Shown one piece after another: positions 13,884 through 22,641 of a stretch of 64,000 nt of DNA (its first letter is position 1; each line of letters starts with the position of its first letter). This stretch comes from Clostridia bacterium (GTDB lineage Bacteria; Bacillota; Clostridia; Christensenellales; SZUA-584): the NCBI GenBank assembly GCA_003249555.1, contig QKIQ01000025.1:1-64000 (forward strand). Reading direction: 5' to 3'. The translations under genes and the position numbers were made by a program. The notes beneath the pieces were generated by a model. That model saw only the letters and a program-made list of their open reading frames with translations, had not been told where the DNA came from and made no database searches.

Positions 13884-14062
13884 TGAAATCGGCATACAGC
13901 ATGTTTCTGATATTCGTTATTATGGTATATATAGTTTATATGAGTATCCAATATGTATAATTCTTTATTTCTAGAGAAATAAGCATATTAGACTTGACAT
14001 GTGTTGGTTTTTGTAAGAATATATAATATATATTGCAAATCTATGACAGGAAGCGTGCTGTA

Positions 14063-15607
14063 ATGTCTATTTTTAAAAAACGTAAAATCTCCATCGTTGC
14101 CATCGCCGCCTTTACGATTGTTTTCGCGTTAGGTATCTATTCCGCCTTTGCCGTAGATGCCGTGGTTCCCGATGAGAACCTAAGCAATGCACTTATTACT
14201 ATCGGTGCAGATACAAGCGGAAACGGACAGATCGAGCAAGAAGAGCTATCCGCACTAACCGTCGCTCTTGATTTGTCTGGTAAAAACATCTCCGATATCA
14301 CTGGATTGGAGTACGCTACCAGCGTTACATATATCAATTTGCAAAACAATAAAATCAGAGATATCAGCAAACTTCTGTCCTTAATTGAGGCAAGTCCTCA
14401 TCCTCTTACAAGTGTTAACCTAAAAAATAACTATCTTATTATCTCGGACAACAGCGAGGATAAAGCAATCGTTGATCAGCTATCTGCAGAATGCGTCGTT
14501 GAATACGCCCCGCAGGATACGATACCGGTCGACAACGTCACTTTTGATTTTGAAACGCTTCTTGTAGGCGTTGACACAACAGCCACGCTGACCGCCACCG
14601 TTGCACCTGATGATGCGACCAATAAGAATCTCGTATGGGCTTCCAGCGATACAAACGTTGCCACAGTCGAAAACGGCACTGTGACAGGTATTGCGCCGGG
14701 CACGGCGACAATTACAGCGACATCCGAGCAAAACGCCAGCTTGACTGCCACGAGCATAGTCACAGTCAAGCGCTTTCATATTGAATCTCAGAAGTATTCT
14801 ATTGATAGGTCTCAAGGCATCATTAAAGGAATTTCCAAAACGACAGCCATTGGTGATTTCCTCAAAGACATAAGTAATGATGCAACCAATCTCACTGTTT
14901 ACGACGCAACTGGTAATCCTTGTACGGATACAACAATGAAAACCGGCATGACCTTGAAGCTAAACGTGGGCGGCACAGAACGCGAATCTTTGAAAATCGT
15001 TGTAACCGGTGACGGCAACGGAGACGGAGAGATTTCCGTTGCGGACTATACGCTGACGCGTCTTGATATACTGGGCCTAAAACCGCTGACTGATGTATAC
15101 AGAACGGCCTGTGATATGAACACTGATGGTCAAATCTCCATTGCAGACTATACGACGATTCGGCTGGATATATTAGGCGTTAAACCTGGCAATTCCGGCA
15201 CCGACCTTCCAAGTGTCTCCGATCCGCGCATCAGAGCTTTCCTTGATGTGGCGCTGATGCAGCAGGGCAAGCCGTATGTATGGAGCGCAGAAGGCCCAGA
15301 CTCGTTCGACTGCTCCGGATATGTATGGTATTGCTTAAGGCAGGTTGGCTACAACGTTGGCCGCACAACGGCAAACAGTTATAGTCAGAAAAGCGAGTGG
15401 CCATATGTGCCCAGAGATCAACTGCAGCCTGGTGATCTAATGTTCTACATCTCAGATAGTGACCCGAACAGAATTGGTCACATCGGTATCTACCTTGGCA
15501 ACGGCTATCATATACATGCATCTTCGTCATATGGCCGTGTTATCATCTGCCGTGTTGATGGATGGTATGACCAGATGCTTAGCCATGGACGCCGGGTATA
15601 TTACTGA
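14063..15607 (+). CDS. Secreted LRR / Ig-like / dockerin / NlpC-P60 peptidoglycan hydrolase
   Basis: 514 aa. A signal peptide (1-30, cleavage after SAFA) is followed by an EF-hand-like and leucine-rich segment (DLSGKNISDITGLEYATSVT), a Big2 immunoglobulin-like domain (about 155-240, ATVENGTVTGIAPGTATITA), a type I dockerin with two calcium repeats (DGNGDGEISVADYTLTRLDIL; DMNTDGQISIADYTTIRLDIL) and a C-terminal NlpC/P60 endopeptidase. C417 in DSFDCSGYVW, H473 in RIGHIGIYLG and H483/H485 supply the catalytic residues. The start at 14063 follows AGGAAG at 14048. It is probably exported and cuts cell-wall peptides. No cohesin is encoded in the window. Confidence 0.9.
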   Translation: MSIFKKRKISIVAIAAFTIVFALGIYSAFAVDAVVPDENLSNALITIGADTSGNGQIEQEELSALTVALDLSGKNISDITGLEYATSVTYINLQNNKIRDISKLLSLIEASPHPLTSVNLKNNYLIISDNSEDKAIVDQLSAECVVEYAPQDTIPVDNVTFDFETLLVGVDTTATLTATVAPDDATNKNLVWASSDTNVATVENGTVTGIAPGTATITATSEQNASLTATSIVTVKRFHIESQKYSIDRSQGIIKGISKTTAIGDFLKDISNDATNLTVYDATGNPCTDTTMKTGMTLKLNVGGTERESLKIVVTGDGNGDGEISVADYTLTRLDILGLKPLTDVYRTACDMNTDGQISIADYTTIRLDILGVKPGNSGTDLPSVSDPRIRAFLDVALMQQGKPYVWSAEGPDSFDCSGYVWYCLRQVGYNVGRTTANSYSQKSEWPYVPRDQLQPGDLMFYISDSDPNRIGHIGIYLGNGYHIHASSSYGRVIICRVDGWYDQMLSHGRRVYY

Positions 15608-15839: not shown

Positions 15840-15933
15840 GGAGAAGTACCCAAGTACGGCTGAAGGGGCTCCCCTGCTAAGGGAGTAGACCGGGGTAACC
15901 GGTGCGAGGGTTCAAATCCCTCCTTCTCCGCCA
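15840..15933 (+). tRNA. tRNA-Ser (anticodon GCU)
   Basis: Acceptor stem GGAGAAG (15840-15846) pairs with CTTCTCC (15923-15929). The anticodon loop CTGCTAA at 15874-15880 is closed by CTCCC/GGGAG, with anticodon GCT at 15876-15878. A long variable arm (TAGACCGGGGTAACCGGT) marks it as class II, and the T arm has GAGGGTTCAAATCCCTC. CCA (15931-15933) is encoded. Confidence 0.97.
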
Positions 15934-16148: not shown

Positions 16149-17057
16149 TCAATACAGAAAAACATTGCCGCCGCCATCATTTGCAGCGCTTAGAAGCTTT
16201 AACCTTTCTCTGATATCTCCTTCCAGCGCGATACCTTTTTGGCCAAGCGTATCTGGCAACTGAGATTCGCTTTTGTTCATACGAATAATTGTTGCGTTTG
16301 GATACTGGTGTGCCATTTGCTCAAAAGGCCATCGGATAATTGTTGGCGTGTTAAACCCAACGCCAATCTCCCAAAATAAAATGCTCCGCTCGTTGTTCTC
16401 TTCAATAAAGCGTTTGTAGTTCGCAAGCTTTTCCAGCCACGGCAATTCAACAAAGTTGCTGTCACAGCGCAGATTCGGTTCGAGCCGCTCACCGGTTTCT
16501 TCGTTGATCGGTATATCTTGTATGCGAATCTCGATCGCGCTTGGCATATTGTCTATCATTTTTCTTACCATATCTTCGTTATACCATAAACGATCATCCG
16601 CGCCGCTCACCGTTTGGAAGTAACCGTAATCTCCCTGCGTCGCTAGCACGTGTTCCTTACCAAACGCTTTTTGGGTCTGGTGGTCGCCATTCGTTGTGAT
16701 GATATAATACGGCGTGTGACCGATCAGACTGCGCAGCAGCGTATACGGCTCGGTCGCTTCCGGTTCATAACGTATGTGATAGATATGTCGGCACCAAAAG
16801 CCCCAGTACTTTTTCGCATCTTCGTCCGACAATTGTCCGATCGTCGTCACCCAATATCGCCCGATTATCGCACCGATCGTCGTCAAACCCATGTTGTAGT
16901 ATTCAGGATACCACTTTTTGCAAAGCTCACTGTCTGTATAATCAAGCCCGCCGGAAGCGGACATGCCCGAACCTATACCAACCACGATTGCATTTGCGTT
17001 TTCAATTGCTTCTTGCGCACGTTCCAATTCATGCAAGAAGTCTGTCATAGATTGCAT
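16149..17057 (-). CDS. Class M sirtuin (SirTM), protein ADP-ribosyltransferase type
   Basis: 302 aa. The NAD-binding start GIGSGMSASGGLDYTD and the core TTNGDHQTQKAF ... LATQGDYGYFQ match macrodomain-linked sirtuins. N123 and Q141 fall where SirTM proteins have Asn and Gln instead of the deacetylase Asn/His pair. Known SirTMs ADP-ribosylate lipoylated GcvH-L. I see no CxxC pair, so no canonical zinc ribbon. The start is 17057 because AAGGAGGA lies 5-12 bases upstream, which makes its 5' end overlap the macrodomain gene by 29 bases. No GcvH-L or lipoate ligase gene is present nearby, so the target is unknown. Confidence 0.88.
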   Translation of the reverse strand: MQSMTDFLHELERAQEAIENANAIVVGIGSGMSASGGLDYTDSELCKKWYPEYYNMGLTTIGAIIGRYWVTTIGQLSDEDAKKYWGFWCRHIYHIRYEPEATEPYTLLRSLIGHTPYYIITTNGDHQTQKAFGKEHVLATQGDYGYFQTVSGADDRLWYNEDMVRKMIDNMPSAIEIRIQDIPINEETGERLEPNLRCDSNFVELPWLEKLANYKRFIEENNERSILFWEIGVGFNTPTIIRWPFEQMAHQYPNATIIRMNKSESQLPDTLGQKGIALEGDIRERLKLLSAANDGGGNVFLY

Positions 17058-17802
17058 AGTCTTCCTCCTTAAACACGTTGAATACAACACTCAGATTGTA
17101 TTCGCGCTTTAGTTCGCGCACGGTGTCTACCGCGATTTGAGCCGCATCAAGGTTTGGAAACCGATATTCGCCGGTGGAGATACAACATAATGCGATGCTT
17201 GCCAGACCGTTTTTTGCCGCAAGCGAATAGCACGCTTGATAGCTGTTCGCTAAAAGTTCGCGATGCCGGTTCTTCAGCCCGCCAAATACGATCGGCCCAA
17301 CGGTATGGATAATCCGGTCACACGGGAGGTTGTATGCTTGAGTGATCTTCGCTTTTCCCGTCGGTTCATCACAAGCTTGTTTATTCATCAGCATCGCGCA
17401 CTCGTTACGCAGCTGCAGTCCCGCTGCCGAATGAATGGCATTATCGACACAGCCGTGGAGCGGCACAAAGCATCCGAGCATTTTATTGTTTGCAGCGTTA
17501 ACAATTGCGCCTACATCAAGACGCGTGATGTCTCCGCGCCACAGGTGTATTCCCGGTTCTCGTTCCTGAATCTGCGCTAAACTGATAACCCCCTTACGCA
17601 CCACATCTTCCGACAACACCGCGTCCTGAGCGGCGTAAAATGCGTCCGCAAGCTCGTTCGGCGGGCAGATATTCATCAAGAAGCGCATAAATTGCCTCTG
17701 GCTGTGTTCATCACCCGATACATGCGCTGCCTGCGCTTTCATTTCCGGCATAACAGACAGCAGATATCCATTGCAATACTTTACGTTTTCTAAGTAGGTC
17801 AC
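17029..17802 (-). CDS. Zn-type macrodomain ADP-ribosylhydrolase
   Basis: 257 aa. A helical N-terminal extension (1-80) precedes a macrodomain (about 84-257). Ligand residues are GDITRLDVGAIVNAANN (90-106) and CISTGEYRFPN (207-217). CFVPLHGCVDNAIH contains C111, H116 and C118, the Cys-His-Cys zinc site of the SirTM-linked macrodomains that reverse sirtuin-mediated ADP-ribosylation. It lies immediately upstream of, and overlaps, the sirtuin gene, so the two are translationally coupled as writer and eraser. Confidence 0.92.
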   Translation of the reverse strand: MTYLENVKYCNGYLLSVMPEMKAQAAHVSGDEHSQRQFMRFLMNICPPNELADAFYAAQDAVLSEDVVRKGVISLAQIQEREPGIHLWRGDITRLDVGAIVNAANNKMLGCFVPLHGCVDNAIHSAAGLQLRNECAMLMNKQACDEPTGKAKITQAYNLPCDRIIHTVGPIVFGGLKNRHRELLANSYQACYSLAAKNGLASIALCCISTGEYRFPNLDAAQIAVDTVRELKREYNLSVVFNVFKEEDYAIYDRLLA

Positions 17803-17840
17803 TTATTGCACTTCCTTTAGCATTCCATTTGTTATCATAG

Positions 17841-18569
17841 TCATTGCGCTTTCGCGAGCGTTTTTCTTCCACAGTCCCTTCTATCCGCCTCTTCCATCGT
17901 TGTTTTGGCATTGACCGCATTTGCCGGACATACCACATAGCACGACCCGCATTCGTCACAAAAGTTGCCAATGATTGAATACGATTCTCCCTGTACGATG
18001 GCATTGAACGTACATACCATTTTGCATGCACCGCACGCAACGCATTTTTCAGCATTGATCGAAAAGCCACACGGCTCTGCCTCTGCCCCGCCATGACTGA
18101 AGCGCATGCGTTCAATCTTATGGTCTCGCTGCGTTTTCTCAAAGTCGTAATCGAACACCTCGCCTTTAAAACGATACAGTACAAACGTCGTCATTGTTGG
18201 GTAGCGTTCAACGTCCTTGACGAGCGGCAAAAACCGCGCGTCCTTCTCGGCCTTTGCTGACAGCTCTTCAAACGGTAGTTCGCGTACATCGCCACTCACA
18301 CGGATATGAAACCCGGGCGGGAAGTCCGGCAAGCCATTTTCATCGTGCATCGCCGGGCCATCCGCCGCAATCAGCGCGCAAACCGCCACCTTCTTCGTCT
18401 CCTTAAGCTGCCGATAGAACGGCTTCACCTTCATCGTCATGAAATACAGACCCTCGTCGTCATACGTTAAAAAGTGAGCGATGCGGATTTCGGGATAATC
18501 TCCGTCAATAGTCGCAAAGCTGTATGCATGCATTTTTTCAAATCTCTCATAAACTTCTTTAATGGTCAT
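17841..18569 (-). CDS. PNPOx-like flavoprotein with two 4Fe-4S clusters
   Basis: 242 aa. Residues 1-150 resemble the pyridoxamine 5'-phosphate oxidase split-barrel (AYSFATIDGDYPEIRIAHFL; DDEGLYFMTM), which binds FMN or F420-type flavins. The C-terminal part holds two ferredoxin motifs: C176-x2-C179-x2-C182-x3-C186 and C204-x2-C207-x2-C210-x3-C214-P. It probably acts as a cytosolic electron-transfer reductase; the substrate is unknown. It sits 38 bases before the macrodomain gene and 20 bases after the ABC ATPase gene, in the same operon. In other SirTM operons flavin oxidoreductases occur too, so a redox link is plausible. Confidence 0.85.
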   Translation of the reverse strand: MTIKEVYERFEKMHAYSFATIDGDYPEIRIAHFLTYDDEGLYFMTMKVKPFYRQLKETKKVAVCALIAADGPAMHDENGLPDFPPGFHIRVSGDVRELPFEELSAKAEKDARFLPLVKDVERYPTMTTFVLYRFKGEVFDYDFEKTQRDHKIERMRFSHGGAEAEPCGFSINAEKCVACGACKMVCTFNAIVQGESYSIIGNFCDECGSCYVVCPANAVNAKTTMEEADRRDCGRKTLAKAQ

Positions 18570-18589
18570 ATCAATTCTCCCTAATATAA

Positions 18590-19303
18590 TTATGCTCTGT
18601 GTATGAATATCCGCAGTTTCTCCGTTTCCGGCTGCGCCAAATCTTCTATGCTTCCATGTTCAATAATGTTCCCTTCGTCCATAAACACAAAGTAATCAGC
18701 GAACTCACGCAGAAAGCCCATCTCGTGCGTGACGAAAACAAACTCCGCGCCATCGGACTTAAGCTGCTTAATGCTATCGAGCACCTGTTTCGTCAGCAGC
18801 GGGTCAAGCGACGCCGTCGGTTCGTCGAGAAACAGCATCTCAGGCCGGGTGCATATTGCACGTGCGATGGATGCACGCTGCGCCTGTCCGCCGGAGATCT
18901 TCGCCGGAATCTTGTGTGCTTGGTCTGTCAGCTGAAACTTCTTAAGAATCGTATCGCACCTTTCCTGCGCAGCCGCCTTCTCCAATCCCGCAGCCTTCGT
19001 TAAAATCAGCATGATGTTTCGTTCCACCGTAAGATGCGGGAACAGGCAGTGACGCTGAAATACCACGCCGATCTTTTTCTGATACGCAATCAAACTTTGC
19101 TGCGTTACTCGTGTTCCGTTTACAGTCACATTTCCACTGTCCGGAAACTCGATACCGGCGAGTTGGCGCAGCAAGGTTGACTTGCCGCAGCCCGATTCAC
19201 CGATAATTCCGACGACCTTCACACCATCAAGGTCAAGGTTCAACCCGTCGAGTATCGTTTTTCCGTCATATAACTTCGTCACGTTTTCAAGCTTCAATTG
19301 CAC
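18590..19303 (-). CDS. Polar amino acid ABC transporter ATPase
   Basis: 237 aa, GlnQ-like. Walker A GESGCGKST, signature SGGQAQRASIARAI, Walker B MLFLDEPTASLD and the switch His in VFVTHEMGF are present. The start is the GTG at 19303, preceded by GGAAGGAGG, which gives a 17-base overlap with the permease gene. An upstream in-frame TTG (19333) has no better ribosome site. It energises uptake by the permease and binding protein encoded upstream. Confidence 0.92.
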   Translation of the reverse strand: MQLKLENVTKLYDGKTILDGLNLDLDGVKVVGIIGESGCGKSTLLRQLAGIEFPDSGNVTVNGTRVTQQSLIAYQKKIGVVFQRHCLFPHLTVERNIMLILTKAAGLEKAAAQERCDTILKKFQLTDQAHKIPAKISGGQAQRASIARAICTRPEMLFLDEPTASLDPLLTKQVLDSIKQLKSDGAEFVFVTHEMGFLREFADYFVFMDEGNIIEHGSIEDLAQPETEKLRIFIHRA

Positions 19304-20036
19304 TACCAAACCTCCTTCCAAGATACGAAGCAAGCAGCGACATGGGGATTGTGATTATTAAATATAACACCCACATGACGAGATATCCTTCAATGCTTGC
19401 ATAGCTTTTATTGGAGATTACGGTGATTACGTACGATATTTCGCTCACCGACACAATCTTTAAAAGCGCGCTGCCCTTTATGATGCTCGACAGGTTGTTA
19501 ATCATCGCGGGAATCATTGGGCGAACCATCTGCGGAATAATGACATAGCGGTAGCGTTGCCACAGACGGAAATGATACAGCCGCATTACCGTGTACTGAT
19601 CAGCGTCGATAACCGCCGAGGCCGTTTCATACGCGTTTGCCACATACGGCGTCATATACGCCGTGAGCGAGACAATACCGAGCACGCTCTTTTGTGTCAT
19701 ACCGACTTTCACACCGAACACATACACGACGATAAAAATCATTACCAGCAGCGGCGTGCCCATGACAACTTCTTTCAGCGCATTCGCCAGTGTCTTTAAA
19801 AACGGGTTTTGACTTCGCATCGCAAGAAAGAACATAAACCCAAAGATCATGCTCATCACAAGCGTCACGATACTGATCCAAAGCGTTGTCACTAACGCCT
19901 CACCAAGCTTTACGCGCTCGGCTAGTATCAGGTCATACCGCAGATTATCTGTGGCGCTTAGTAGAATGACAGCGAACAACACCGCGATAAACAGATAGGC
20001 CGCCGTTTTTTGTATTTTTGTCTTCATCACATTCAT
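19287..20036 (-). CDS. Polar amino acid ABC transporter permease
   Basis: 249 aa, His/Glu/Gln/Arg permease type (HisM/GlnP). About five membrane helices are visible, starting with AAYLFIAVLFAVILLSA. The EAA loop reads A-Y-E-T-A-S-A-V-I ... VIIPQMVRPMIPAMINN. It is 8 bases downstream of the binding-protein gene and overlaps the ATPase gene. Confidence 0.9.
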   Translation of the reverse strand: MNVMKTKIQKTAAYLFIAVLFAVILLSATDNLRYDLILAERVKLGEALVTTLWISIVTLVMSMIFGFMFFLAMRSQNPFLKTLANALKEVVMGTPLLVMIFIVVYVFGVKVGMTQKSVLGIVSLTAYMTPYVANAYETASAVIDADQYTVMRLYHFRLWQRYRYVIIPQMVRPMIPAMINNLSSIIKGSALLKIVSVSEISYVITVISNKSYASIEGYLVMWVLYLIITIPMSLLASYLGRRFGSAIEA

Positions 20037-20044
20037 ATTTGCGC

Positions 20045-20878
20045 TTATTCCGGCCGAGTAACAATATAGTCGAGCCCGAAACTATTATTAAAGAAGACCT
20101 CACCAACTGCTGCATCGTACTTGTCTGCAAGCTGCTCATATAACCCGCCGTCTTCATACAAAGATGCAATAAACGTATTCGCCTGCTCCAGAAGGTCCGT
20201 ATTTCCTTTCTTCACCGCAAATGCCGATGTAGAATATTCAGGCACACCAAGATAAATCTCCGTGGTGTCCGGGTTGGCCGCGTGATCGCCGAAAACCATG
20301 TACGAACCGACCAATACATTGTAGTTTCCCGTTGTGACCTCCATGATTGCCGTGGCAATCTCCGTCGCTTCGGTTGCTTCTGCACCGTAGTTATATGGCA
20401 CAATCGTCGATATCGTTCCACTCAGACCGATAGCCTTGAGACCATCCAACGCAAAGAACTCTTCGACTGGCATATCGTCGCTGATACCGTTTGCCTCATA
20501 AAACTCCTTGTTCACCAGTGTCGCCGTTTTGCCGTAACGGTAGCCGTCCGAGAAGTCGACTTTCTGCTTGCGTTCCTCGTTGATCGACATGTCACTGATC
20601 ACAATATCCGTTTCCCCCGACTCGAGCGACGCAATTAGCATTGAGAAATCCGTATTGATGATCTTCACCTCTCTGCCAAGATATTCGCCGAACGCACGTG
20701 CCAGATCTGGCTCGAGCCCGGCGGGTTCGTCATTTTCGTCAAGATACATAAACGGCGGGTACTTCAAATCGATACCGACCTTAAGCACATCGCTTTTTGC
20801 CTTGCCTGCGCTGTCACACGCCGCCAGCACGCCAACGAGCATTATTACGATGATTACTATACTGAAAAACTTCTTCAT
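20045..20878 (-). CDS. Amino acid ABC transporter substrate-binding lipoprotein
   Basis: 277 aa. A lipoprotein signal peptide ends in GVLAAC. It is followed by an SBP_bac_3 fold (DLKYPPFMYLDENDEPAGLEPDLARAFGEYLG; DIVISDMSINEERKQKVDFSDGYRYGKT). The start at 20878 follows GGGAGGAAAAT. It is first gene of the operon that continues through permease, ATPase, PNPOx-ferredoxin, macrodomain and sirtuin. The exact amino acid is not readable; the FS-DGY hinge is common in cystine/polar amino acid receptors. Confidence 0.9.
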   Translation of the reverse strand: MKKFFSIVIIVIMLVGVLAACDSAGKAKSDVLKVGIDLKYPPFMYLDENDEPAGLEPDLARAFGEYLGREVKIINTDFSMLIASLESGETDIVISDMSINEERKQKVDFSDGYRYGKTATLVNKEFYEANGISDDMPVEEFFALDGLKAIGLSGTISTIVPYNYGAEATEATEIATAIMEVTTGNYNVLVGSYMVFGDHAANPDTTEIYLGVPEYSTSAFAVKKGNTDLLEQANTFIASLYEDGGLYEQLADKYDAAVGEVFFNNSFGLDYIVTRPE

Positions 20879-21024
20879 ATTTTCCTCCCATGTTGTTTTC
20901 TGTCTTTTAGGATAGCAAATAATGCGCCGCAATTGAATATGATAACGCGCAAAAAACTTATAAAAACGAAACCATACGATTTATACGCACCAAAACTATG
21001 CTATACTATGCTAGGGTGATTATT

Positions 21025-21891
21025 ATGCCGATTGGGAGAATTAGATATATTAATACAGACAAACGCGGTGCCGATTTCGAAATCGTCGCCCTGGAGCAGT
21101 TTTTTGCTACGCGTCCAAAGAAAATGCTCGAAAAAGACTATCGGTTGGATTTTTGGGCACTGTTCTATATCACGGAGGGAAGCGGCGTGCATTCGATCGA
21201 CTTTACGAACCATGCCTATCAAGCAGGCGATATGATTGTGATTGCCAAGAACCACGTGCATTCGTTTCGCGTCAATTACGATGCGCGTGGATACATTGTC
21301 CACATCAACGAACCGTTTTTTTTAAAAAGCGGCGTCACGCGTGATATGGACATGCTTGCATTTTTCGAAACACCAATGTGCCAGCCGATTCTGCACGTGG
21401 ACATATCGCCCTCTGCGACGAGTCGGCAATTGATCGACTTAATATATAAAGAATACCTGCTGGCGGAAGAAGAAATCGCCAATAAGCTCATCAAGTCTCT
21501 GATGAGTGCATTTGTTTTTTCGATCCGTGGCGAGAACGCTGCCGATATCCGCAGCTTTTCAACCGCGGCCTATCGTAACTACTTCGAATATCGAGAACTC
21601 GTGGAGCAGAACTTTACCAAGCTAAAAACTGTCACGGACTATGAGCCGCTGATGGGTGTCACAAAAAAAACGCTTAACGCCGCCTGCCGCGCCTGTGCTG
21701 GCATCAGCGCAAAAGAACTGATTACAAACCGCGTGATCCTCGAGGCCAAGCGACTGTTGGCGCAAAACGAGTTGAAAAACTATGAGATTTCCTATCAACT
21801 GGGTTTTGATGAGCCCGCTAATCTTGCAAACTTCTTTAAGCGCAACACGGGAATGAGCATGCGCAGATTCCGCGATATGCTTACCATGTAA
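21025..21891 (+). CDS. AraC-family regulator, divergent from the sirtuin operon
   Basis: 288 aa. The N-terminal cupin (about 45-100, FWALFYITEGSGVHSIDF...GDMIVIAKNHVHSF) and C-terminal AraC helix-turn-helix pair (NYEISYQLGFDEPANLANFFKRNTGMSMRRFR) are clear. The start at 21025 follows AGGGTGAT. It is transcribed divergently from the six-gene operon with about 145 bases between starts, so it is a reasonable regulator of that operon. An extended -10 (TGCTATACT) is centred near 21004. Confidence 0.9.
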   Translation: MPIGRIRYINTDKRGADFEIVALEQFFATRPKKMLEKDYRLDFWALFYITEGSGVHSIDFTNHAYQAGDMIVIAKNHVHSFRVNYDARGYIVHINEPFFLKSGVTRDMDMLAFFETPMCQPILHVDISPSATSRQLIDLIYKEYLLAEEEIANKLIKSLMSAFVFSIRGENAADIRSFSTAAYRNYFEYRELVEQNFTKLKTVTDYEPLMGVTKKTLNAACRACAGISAKELITNRVILEAKRLLAQNELKNYEISYQLGFDEPANLANFFKRNTGMSMRRFRDMLTM

Positions 21892-22092: not shown

Positions 22093-22641
22093 CTATTCAC
22101 CCGCAAAGCGCATGATGTCATCCACATCTTTTCTTGGTGTGGGTGACGGCTGCTCATCCGGATACCCATAAACCATCAGCGCGGCAACAGTTTCTTCCTC
22201 TGGCAAACCAACAACTTTGGATATCGACTTGTCATCGATTACGCCCATAATTACCGTACCGATACCTTTTGCATGCGCGGCCAAACAAAATGTCTGGCAT
22301 GCGAGTCCCGCATCAAATACTTCCCATACATTCGTTTTCGATGTCGCGTATTCATCTTTGTCAAGTTTACCGCTTTTACCTTTGACAAAGCTTAAAACAG
22401 CAACATTCTTTGCATTTTCTAAAATGCCGACATTGTACATAAATCCATTAACGCCTTTGGATGCGATCTGTTTGATCATGGTTTCATCATCTACAAATGT
22501 ATATCTTGCTACCTGGAAATTCCCCCATGAGGGTGCCCAACGGCTAATGTCTACGATTTCTCTCATGGTTTCCCGGTTTACCTTTTCGTTCTTGAACTTT
22601 CTTACGCTTCTGCGCTCTTTGATCATTTCAATTGCTTCCAT
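22093..22641 (-). CDS. Nitroreductase-family protein
   Basis: 182 aa FMN-dependent nitroreductase of the short clostridial type. The start EMIKERRSVRKFKNEKV is the classic FMN-phosphate binding N-terminus. ISRWAPSWGNFQ and the C-terminal VAALMVYGYPDEQP are conserved. Monocistronic, with GGGAAA before the ATG. Substrate unknown; typically NAD(P)H-dependent reduction of quinones or nitro compounds. Confidence 0.93.
   Translation of the reverse strand: MEAIEMIKERRSVRKFKNEKVNRETMREIVDISRWAPSWGNFQVARYTFVDDETMIKQIASKGVNGFMYNVGILENAKNVAVLSFVKGKSGKLDKDEYATSKTNVWEVFDAGLACQTFCLAAHAKGIGTVIMGVIDDKSISKVVGLPEEETVAALMVYGYPDEQPSPTPRKDVDDIMRFAGE

Follow-up and report, generated by a model that had tools for sequence, protein, structure and literature searches.

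Which protein is modified by a class M sirtuin (SirTM) whose gene neighbours point to an iron-sulfur flavoprotein and an amino acid importer? SirTM is described as an NAD+-dependent ADP-ribosyltransferase and the Zn-dependent macrodomain protein (Zn-macro) as the matching hydrolase in the available text of PMC4518038 and PMC11490716; the latter (2024) gives GcvH-L as the sole known target and states those of other SirTM/Zn-macro systems as unknown. The question is raised by the first 64,000 nucleotides of contig QKIQ01000025.1 of a Clostridia bacterium (the whole stretch is hereafter the window), where a minus-strand run of six genes encodes a solute-binding protein (SBP), a permease, an ATPase, a PNPOx-fold protein with two [4Fe-4S] motifs (PNPOx-2[4Fe-4S], or PNPOx-FeS), a Zn-macro and a SirTM. 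We propose, with a probability of roughly one half, that the last three proteins make up a redox-linked, reversible ADP-ribosylation cassette with PNPOx-FeS as the conserved partner and the importer outside it. SirTM, predicted from homology and conserved catalytic residues to be a protein ADP-ribosyltransferase using NAD+, would move ADP-ribose onto an acidic side chain in its target protein; on the same kind of evidence, Zn-macro would take it off again. PNPOx-FeS would be either the modified protein itself or a redox enzyme whose client is modified. The genes of the proposed cassette are:

16149..17057, minus strand: SirTM, 302 aa; ATG start at 17057 with the Shine-Dalgarno-like sequence AAGGAGG
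17029..17802, minus strand: Zn-macro (predicted ADP-ribosyl hydrolase), 257 aa; GTG start
17841..18569, minus strand: PNPOx-fold protein with a C-terminal 2[4Fe-4S] ferredoxin tail, 242 aa; PNPOx_N and two Fer4 domains

The three proteins of the proposed cassette

Domains were called with Pfam and NCBIfam scans, and structural relatives were taken from PDB matches. We place the SirTM start at the ATG at 17057 rather than at the GTG at 17090 of the raw open reading frame. The protein has no match in Pfam or NCBIfam; its nearest solved structures are SpySirTM (5a3a, 2e-25) and a fungal fusion protein (8rsn, 2e-18). Residues N123, Q141 and R197 align with N118, Q137 and R192 of SpySirTM, for which catalytic roles are given in the available text of PMC4518038, and these positions are invariant in alignments of 9 and of 93 homologs. 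Where other sirtuins carry the catalytic HG, the window protein has QG, and the Q is present in 93/93 homologs. The linkage to a macrodomain gene that characterizes class M is evident as well: the macrodomain gene overlaps that of SirTM by 29 nt, and such a gene lies within 4.5 kb of SirTM in 85 of the 95 loci compared below.

Zn-macro matches PF01661 (1e-34), the NCBIfam model for protein-ADP-ribose hydrolase (NF003163, 297 bits, cut-off 272) and PDB 8rsi (7e-62). Its signature is complete, with NAAN, the Cx4HxC zinc loop and Dx3H (NAANNKMLGCFVPLHGCVDNAIH) located behind approximately 85 N-terminal residues; these motifs, together with an N-terminal extension, define Zn-macros in the available text of PMC11490716.

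The PNPOx_N domain of the third protein scores 25.6 bits, just under the cut-off of 28.1, and those of its homologs at two other loci (L076 and L112) score 30.6 and 41 bits. The two Fer4 matches contain the motifs CVACGACKMVC and CDECGSCYVVC, both of the form CxxCxxCxxxC, and the protein is probably an FMN protein that moves electrons via two [4Fe-4S] clusters. An AlphaFold model built from the single sequence was too poor (pLDDT 39.6) and was left unused. At one locus (L065:5463-6866), PNPOx-FeS and Zn-macro share one open frame of 467 aa in which the second Fe-S motif is broken; a frameshift is probable, and this case was not counted as a true fusion.

Recurrence of the flavoprotein next to the pair

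We searched for SirTM in 396 genomes of the order to which the window belongs and in 398 genomes sampled from the phylum, and found it in 94 and 24 of these, respectively, at 23-51% (mostly 30-37%) identity; an initial single-sequence scan of genome contigs had yielded one relative only. The nearer relative, from another family of the class (L112), is 46% identical by the genome search and 44% by the alignment. The window's own family is represented by four more genomes, none of which has a SirTM. In a SirTM tree of 93 rows, the window protein groups with that of L112 in a deep clade (SH-aLRT 100); this tree was built quickly and both proteins sit on long branches, which leaves its exact root uncertain.

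The genes within 4.5 kb of SirTM were then compared with reference families at 95 loci, mostly from the window's order. Apart from the macrodomain gene, the most common neighbour is a divergent HxlR-type regulator (49/95), followed by an upstream cupin (28/95), with plain PNPOx at 11 loci, an NAD(P)-binding protein at 8, a nitroreductase at 7 and radical SAM at 6; Pfam and NCBIfam back these assignments (HxlR, Cupin_2, NAD_binding_10, PNPOx_N, Fer4 and ACGX-system radical SAM). PNPOx-2[4Fe-4S] is encoded upstream of the macrodomain and SirTM genes at 22 of the 95 loci, a count from which a PNPOx match without Fe-S motifs (L080) was dropped (23 to 22). These 22 loci span 16 families, 11 within the order and 5 outside. 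The link appears to recur, because the PNPOx-FeS label requires 16 changes on the SirTM tree, at least 8 of which are forced by well-supported branches. The locus of the L112 relative consists of HxlR, PNPOx, PNPOx-FeS, Zn-macro and SirTM, with no transporter. Conversely, a profile of the PNPOx part gave 30 strong matches (at least 80 bits) in the 396 genomes, 19 of which adjoin SirTM by coordinate comparison, a share that is biased upward since the profile was made from SirTM-linked members only.

The redox connection that had been suggested for the window from its sequence alone is supported by both PNPOx-2[4Fe-4S] and the divergent HxlR. The representative HxlR protein is nearest to the redox regulators RrpB and RrpA, yet scores under their cut-offs; regulators of this type may place the cassette under the control of redox or electrophile stress.

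The same association is seen in named plasmid records. A plasmid of Roseburia sp. 831b encodes an HxlR-type protein, acgA, acgM, a nitroreductase, a 4Fe-4S protein, a protein-ADP-ribose hydrolase and SirTM, and a Subdoligranulum variabile plasmid is a further record in line with the PNPOx-FeS linkage. The plain form of PNPOx is present on an Enterococcus casseliflavus plasmid (hydrolase, SirTM, PNPOx, NUDIX) and on pTS1 of Treponema saccharophilum (NAD(P)H-binding protein, PNPOx, Rrf2, SirTM, hydrolase).

The small cupin encoded upstream of the macrodomain gene, with a divergent HxlR, is common in the order (28 loci, e.g., L061:7806-8156), and on the SirTM tree its label requires 9 changes, compared with 23.7 when shuffled, and is thus clustered. 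In addition, an ACGX radical SAM gene (TIGR04340; 547 bits in L114) belongs to the same operon as PNPOx-FeS, Zn-macro and SirTM at six loci of the order and phylum sets (L064, L113, L114, L120, L141 and L164) and on two plasmids (L205:665-4861 and L209:2325-6271), with a nitroreductase nearly always present. An ACGX-repeat peptide is annotated in L205, and such a peptide could also be a target of ADP-ribosylation.

Observations that weigh against the proposed cassette

Several observations count against this assignment. At 73 of the 95 loci, PNPOx-FeS is missing; a cupin is present at 28 loci, a plain PNPOx alone at 8 (counted on the tree), and others have neither, so PNPOx-FeS cannot be the only client. 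Likewise, 11 of the 30 PNPOx-FeS genes do not lie beside SirTM, and on an archaeal Methanosphaera plasmid (L208:4496-5579), where PNPOx-FeS occurs with a helix-turn-helix gene and a radical SAM/SPASM pair, no SirTM or macrodomain gene is annotated nearby. The importer could still be functionally coupled to the cassette in this lineage alone. Finally, the window SirTM is divergent, with all four cysteines of the zinc ribbon substituted (T, A, N, T). The ribbon is a general sirtuin feature that is present in SpySirTM, not a defining trait of class M, and its cysteines are partly or wholly lost in 15 of the 93 SirTMs (the window protein and 14/92 others, namely, L072, L075, L117, L119, L122-L124, L128, L137, L140, L146, L158, L161 and L163), with the catalytic residues intact; the closest relative, L112, retains them. 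Because the SirTM tree puts these losses at two or more distinct positions, the ribbon seems to be dispensable within class M.

The narrower proposal that PNPOx-2[4Fe-4S] is itself the ADP-ribosylated client, such that SirTM and Zn-macro would switch a flavin/iron-sulfur electron carrier reversibly and in an NAD-dependent manner, is put forward only tentatively. If it holds, this would be the first SirTM substrate outside the lipoyl carriers and the operon a second type of extended SirTM operon.

The patchy spread of the pair (94/396 order genomes, with none in four other family members), along with the plasmid-borne cases, would also fit a different stress or defence module, that is, an NAD-consuming effector with a macrodomain antidote or a toxin-antitoxin system, to which the redox neighbours would be incidental. 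We consider this quite improbable: PADLOC gave no match for SirTM, the macrodomain protein or PNPOx-FeS, the recurring neighbours are redox genes and redox-type regulators rather than defence genes, and the class M sirtuins tested to date are specific transferases in the available text of PMC4518038. An anti-phage module was rejected on the same PADLOC result. In a scan of viral contigs, SirTM turned up in three stretches, each located at the end of its contig or close to it; part of a macrodomain gene adjoins one of them, and PNPOx-FeS adjoins none.

GcvH and the lipoate question

The sequence-only reading had pointed out that neither GcvH-L nor a lipoate ligase belongs to the operon and had suggested a different target. 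Neither is indeed found among the operon genes scanned; this lack by itself is not unusual given that SirTM/Zn-macro pairs without GcvH-L and LplA2, like the one in the window, are already described in the available text of PMC4518038 and PMC11490716. The suggestion of a different target receives support from the order-wide comparison. Among the 396 genomes, 21 contain both GcvH (counted at E < ~1e-18) and SirTM, 73 SirTM only, 91 GcvH only and 211 neither, and the two are not associated (odds ratio 0.67, p 0.15), which led us to reject GcvH as a general SirTM target. Thus, 73 of the 94 SirTM genomes in the order lack detectable GcvH, and a genome incompleteness of a few percent cannot shrink 73 to a small number; therefore, most SirTMs of the order must act on another target, and for the pair in the window a target other than GcvH-L is likely.

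A search of the genome itself gave a single GcvH match, a 112 aa protein on contig C86, encoded downstream of cysS among unrelated genes, which carries the ExxKx10G lipoylation motif in a neighbourhood that is not that of a glycine cleavage system (GCS), and one lipoate-protein ligase (LplA) over the cut-off on contig C120; only a sub-cut-off match to glycine decarboxylase was found. The C86 protein scores under the NCBIfam GcvH cut-offs, and its nearest structures are ordinary GcvH, with no GcvH-L structure among its structural matches. These genes allow for a scenario in which the C86 protein, lipoylated by the C120 ligase, would be the SirTM target in trans and PNPOx-FeS would exchange electrons with the lipoyl group, in keeping with lipoyl-GcvH-L being the only SirTM target known (available text of PMC4518038 and PMC11490716). 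This scenario, a rival for this genome only, is doubtful given the lack of a GcvH-SirTM association and the ordinary character of the C86 protein. Moreover, genomes of the same genus contain GcvH matches without SirTM, and Zn-macros of lone pairs failed to de-modify GcvH-L in vitro, as reported in the available text of PMC11490716.

The amino acid importer

The importer genes, the divergent regulator and the putative terminator are arranged as follows:

18590..19303, minus strand: polar amino acid type ABC ATPase; GTG start; PF00005 1e-37; GlnQ/ArtP-like, under the equivalog cut-offs
19287..20036, minus strand: polar amino acid type ABC permease; PF00528; TIGR01726 49 bits, cut-off 42.2
20045..20878, minus strand: family 3 solute-binding lipoprotein (SBP); PF00497 (SBP_bac_3) 5e-34; LAAC lipobox
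20998..21891, plus strand: divergent AraC-family regulator; PF12833 7e-16, PF02311
16076-16063, minus strand: terminator-like hairpin with a T run past the SirTM stop; weak consensus match, 5 pairs

The gene order, the tight spacing with overlaps, the divergent AraC gene and the terminator-like element are as originally described. The intergenic distances are 8 bases (SBP-permease), -17 (permease-ATPase), 20 (ATPase-PNPOx), 38 (PNPOx-macrodomain) and -29 (macrodomain-SirTM), and Shine-Dalgarno-like sequences precede five of the six starts, the exception being the permease, where none is clear; the stop-to-start gap of 8 bases suggests that the permease is translationally coupled to SBP. Co-transcription of the six tightly spaced genes is likely, given the terminator-like hairpin past SirTM and the lack of any strong minus-strand promoter between ATPase and PNPOx.

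This packing, with neither a strong promoter nor a strong terminator found between ATPase and PNPOx, would fit a single functional unit in which ADP-ribosylation steers the importer, for example its ATPase, by NAD or redox state. The survey makes such a unit unlikely: SBP and permease lie beside SirTM at 1 of the 95 loci, the window alone, and no close relative sharing the arrangement was found among these loci. The closest permease (44%) belongs to an SBP-permease-ATPase operon (proteins 41-53% identical) with a MarR-like gene and no SirTM, and two more transporter relatives are likewise on their own, or close to it. Conservation therefore extends to the flavoprotein link but not to the transporter link: PNPOx-FeS accompanies SirTM at 22 loci, SBP and permease do so in the window only, and the transporter relatives lack SirTM. 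Of the co-occurrence that was to be looked for across Clostridia, then, the part that joins SirTM, Zn-macro and PNPOx-FeS stands, whereas the part that adds a GlnPQ-type transporter does not. The sequence-only reading had named conservation of the pair without the transporter as evidence against a link to amino acid uptake, and this is what the relatives show; the juxtaposition is best read as local to the window.

The substrate suggested for the importer, cystine, finds no support either, with the NCBIfam cystine models far under their cut-offs (81.9/312, 55.6/300 and 190.3/406 bits, score/cut-off). Glutamine and arginine transporter models are all under cut-off as well, and the top PDB matches of SBP are ancestral reconstructions of binding proteins along with amino acid binders, from which no single substrate is assignable. 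For the organism, the arrangement may nevertheless be relevant, because the cassette, now located behind the importer, would be expressed together with it under the AraC gene, which takes the place of the divergent HxlR present at roughly half of the related loci.

Relationship to known systems

The window encodes the same enzymes as the published SirTM/Zn-macro pair (available text of PMC4518038 and PMC11490716), with overlapping genes, QG, the N and R residues and the Cx4HxC loop. It differs from it by the PNPOx-2[4Fe-4S] link, often with a divergent HxlR in relatives, and by a SirTM without the zinc ribbon. The extended operon of staphylococci and streptococci (GcvH-L, LplA2, OYE and the luciferase-like LLM) likewise places a writer and an eraser beside flavin-type oxidoreductases, and PNPOx-FeS would fill the slot of OYE and LLM. 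The window operon contains none of these four genes, with no OYE (PF00724) or LLM (PF00296) among the scanned window genes, and its flavoprotein is of another family and has a ferredoxin tail. The GcvH-L operon has been proposed to act in oxidative stress, a parallel to the redox role suggested here, in which the flavoprotein differs. The ACGX radical SAM/peptide system, combined with the cassette at the loci listed above, was not found in the window. The transporter proteins belong to the families of polar amino acid ABC importers of the GlnPQ/HisJQMP type (SBP_bac_3, BPD_transp_1, ABC_tran); unlike those, the window transporter falls under the cystine, glutamine and arginine cut-offs, and its tie to SirTM is unconserved elsewhere.

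The searched text of PMC4518038 and PMC11490716 makes no mention of a PNPOx-2[4Fe-4S] or HxlR linkage, and we found no literature that joins SirTM or macrodomains with HxlR or pyridoxamine/ferredoxin proteins, or that names ACGX, in a search outside of which many subscription papers fall. On best reading, the cassette is a PNPOx-ferredoxin type of extended SirTM operon, undescribed in the literature searched, the coverage of which is incomplete. The recurrence of one partner gene in 16 families, among genomes that for the most part have no GcvH, provides a short candidate list of SirTM targets and would tie ADP-ribosylation to flavin/Fe-S redox chemistry in this bacterial group.

Other genes around the operon

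The GC content of the region is unremarkable. A tRNA-Ser(GCT) gene (15840-15933, plus strand), the sole match in an Rfam scan, has its 3' end facing the operon; an insertion element at this site was rejected given that no second copy of the 20 bp tRNA 3' end, and thus no att repeat, is present in the window. Past the AraC gene, on the same strand, a nitroreductase is encoded at 22093-22641; nitroreductases recur within SirTM operons elsewhere. Finally, the protein encoded at 14033-15607 has an unusual make-up, in which Big_2, dockerin and NlpC/P60 domains bring together modules of the cellulosome type and of cell wall hydrolases.

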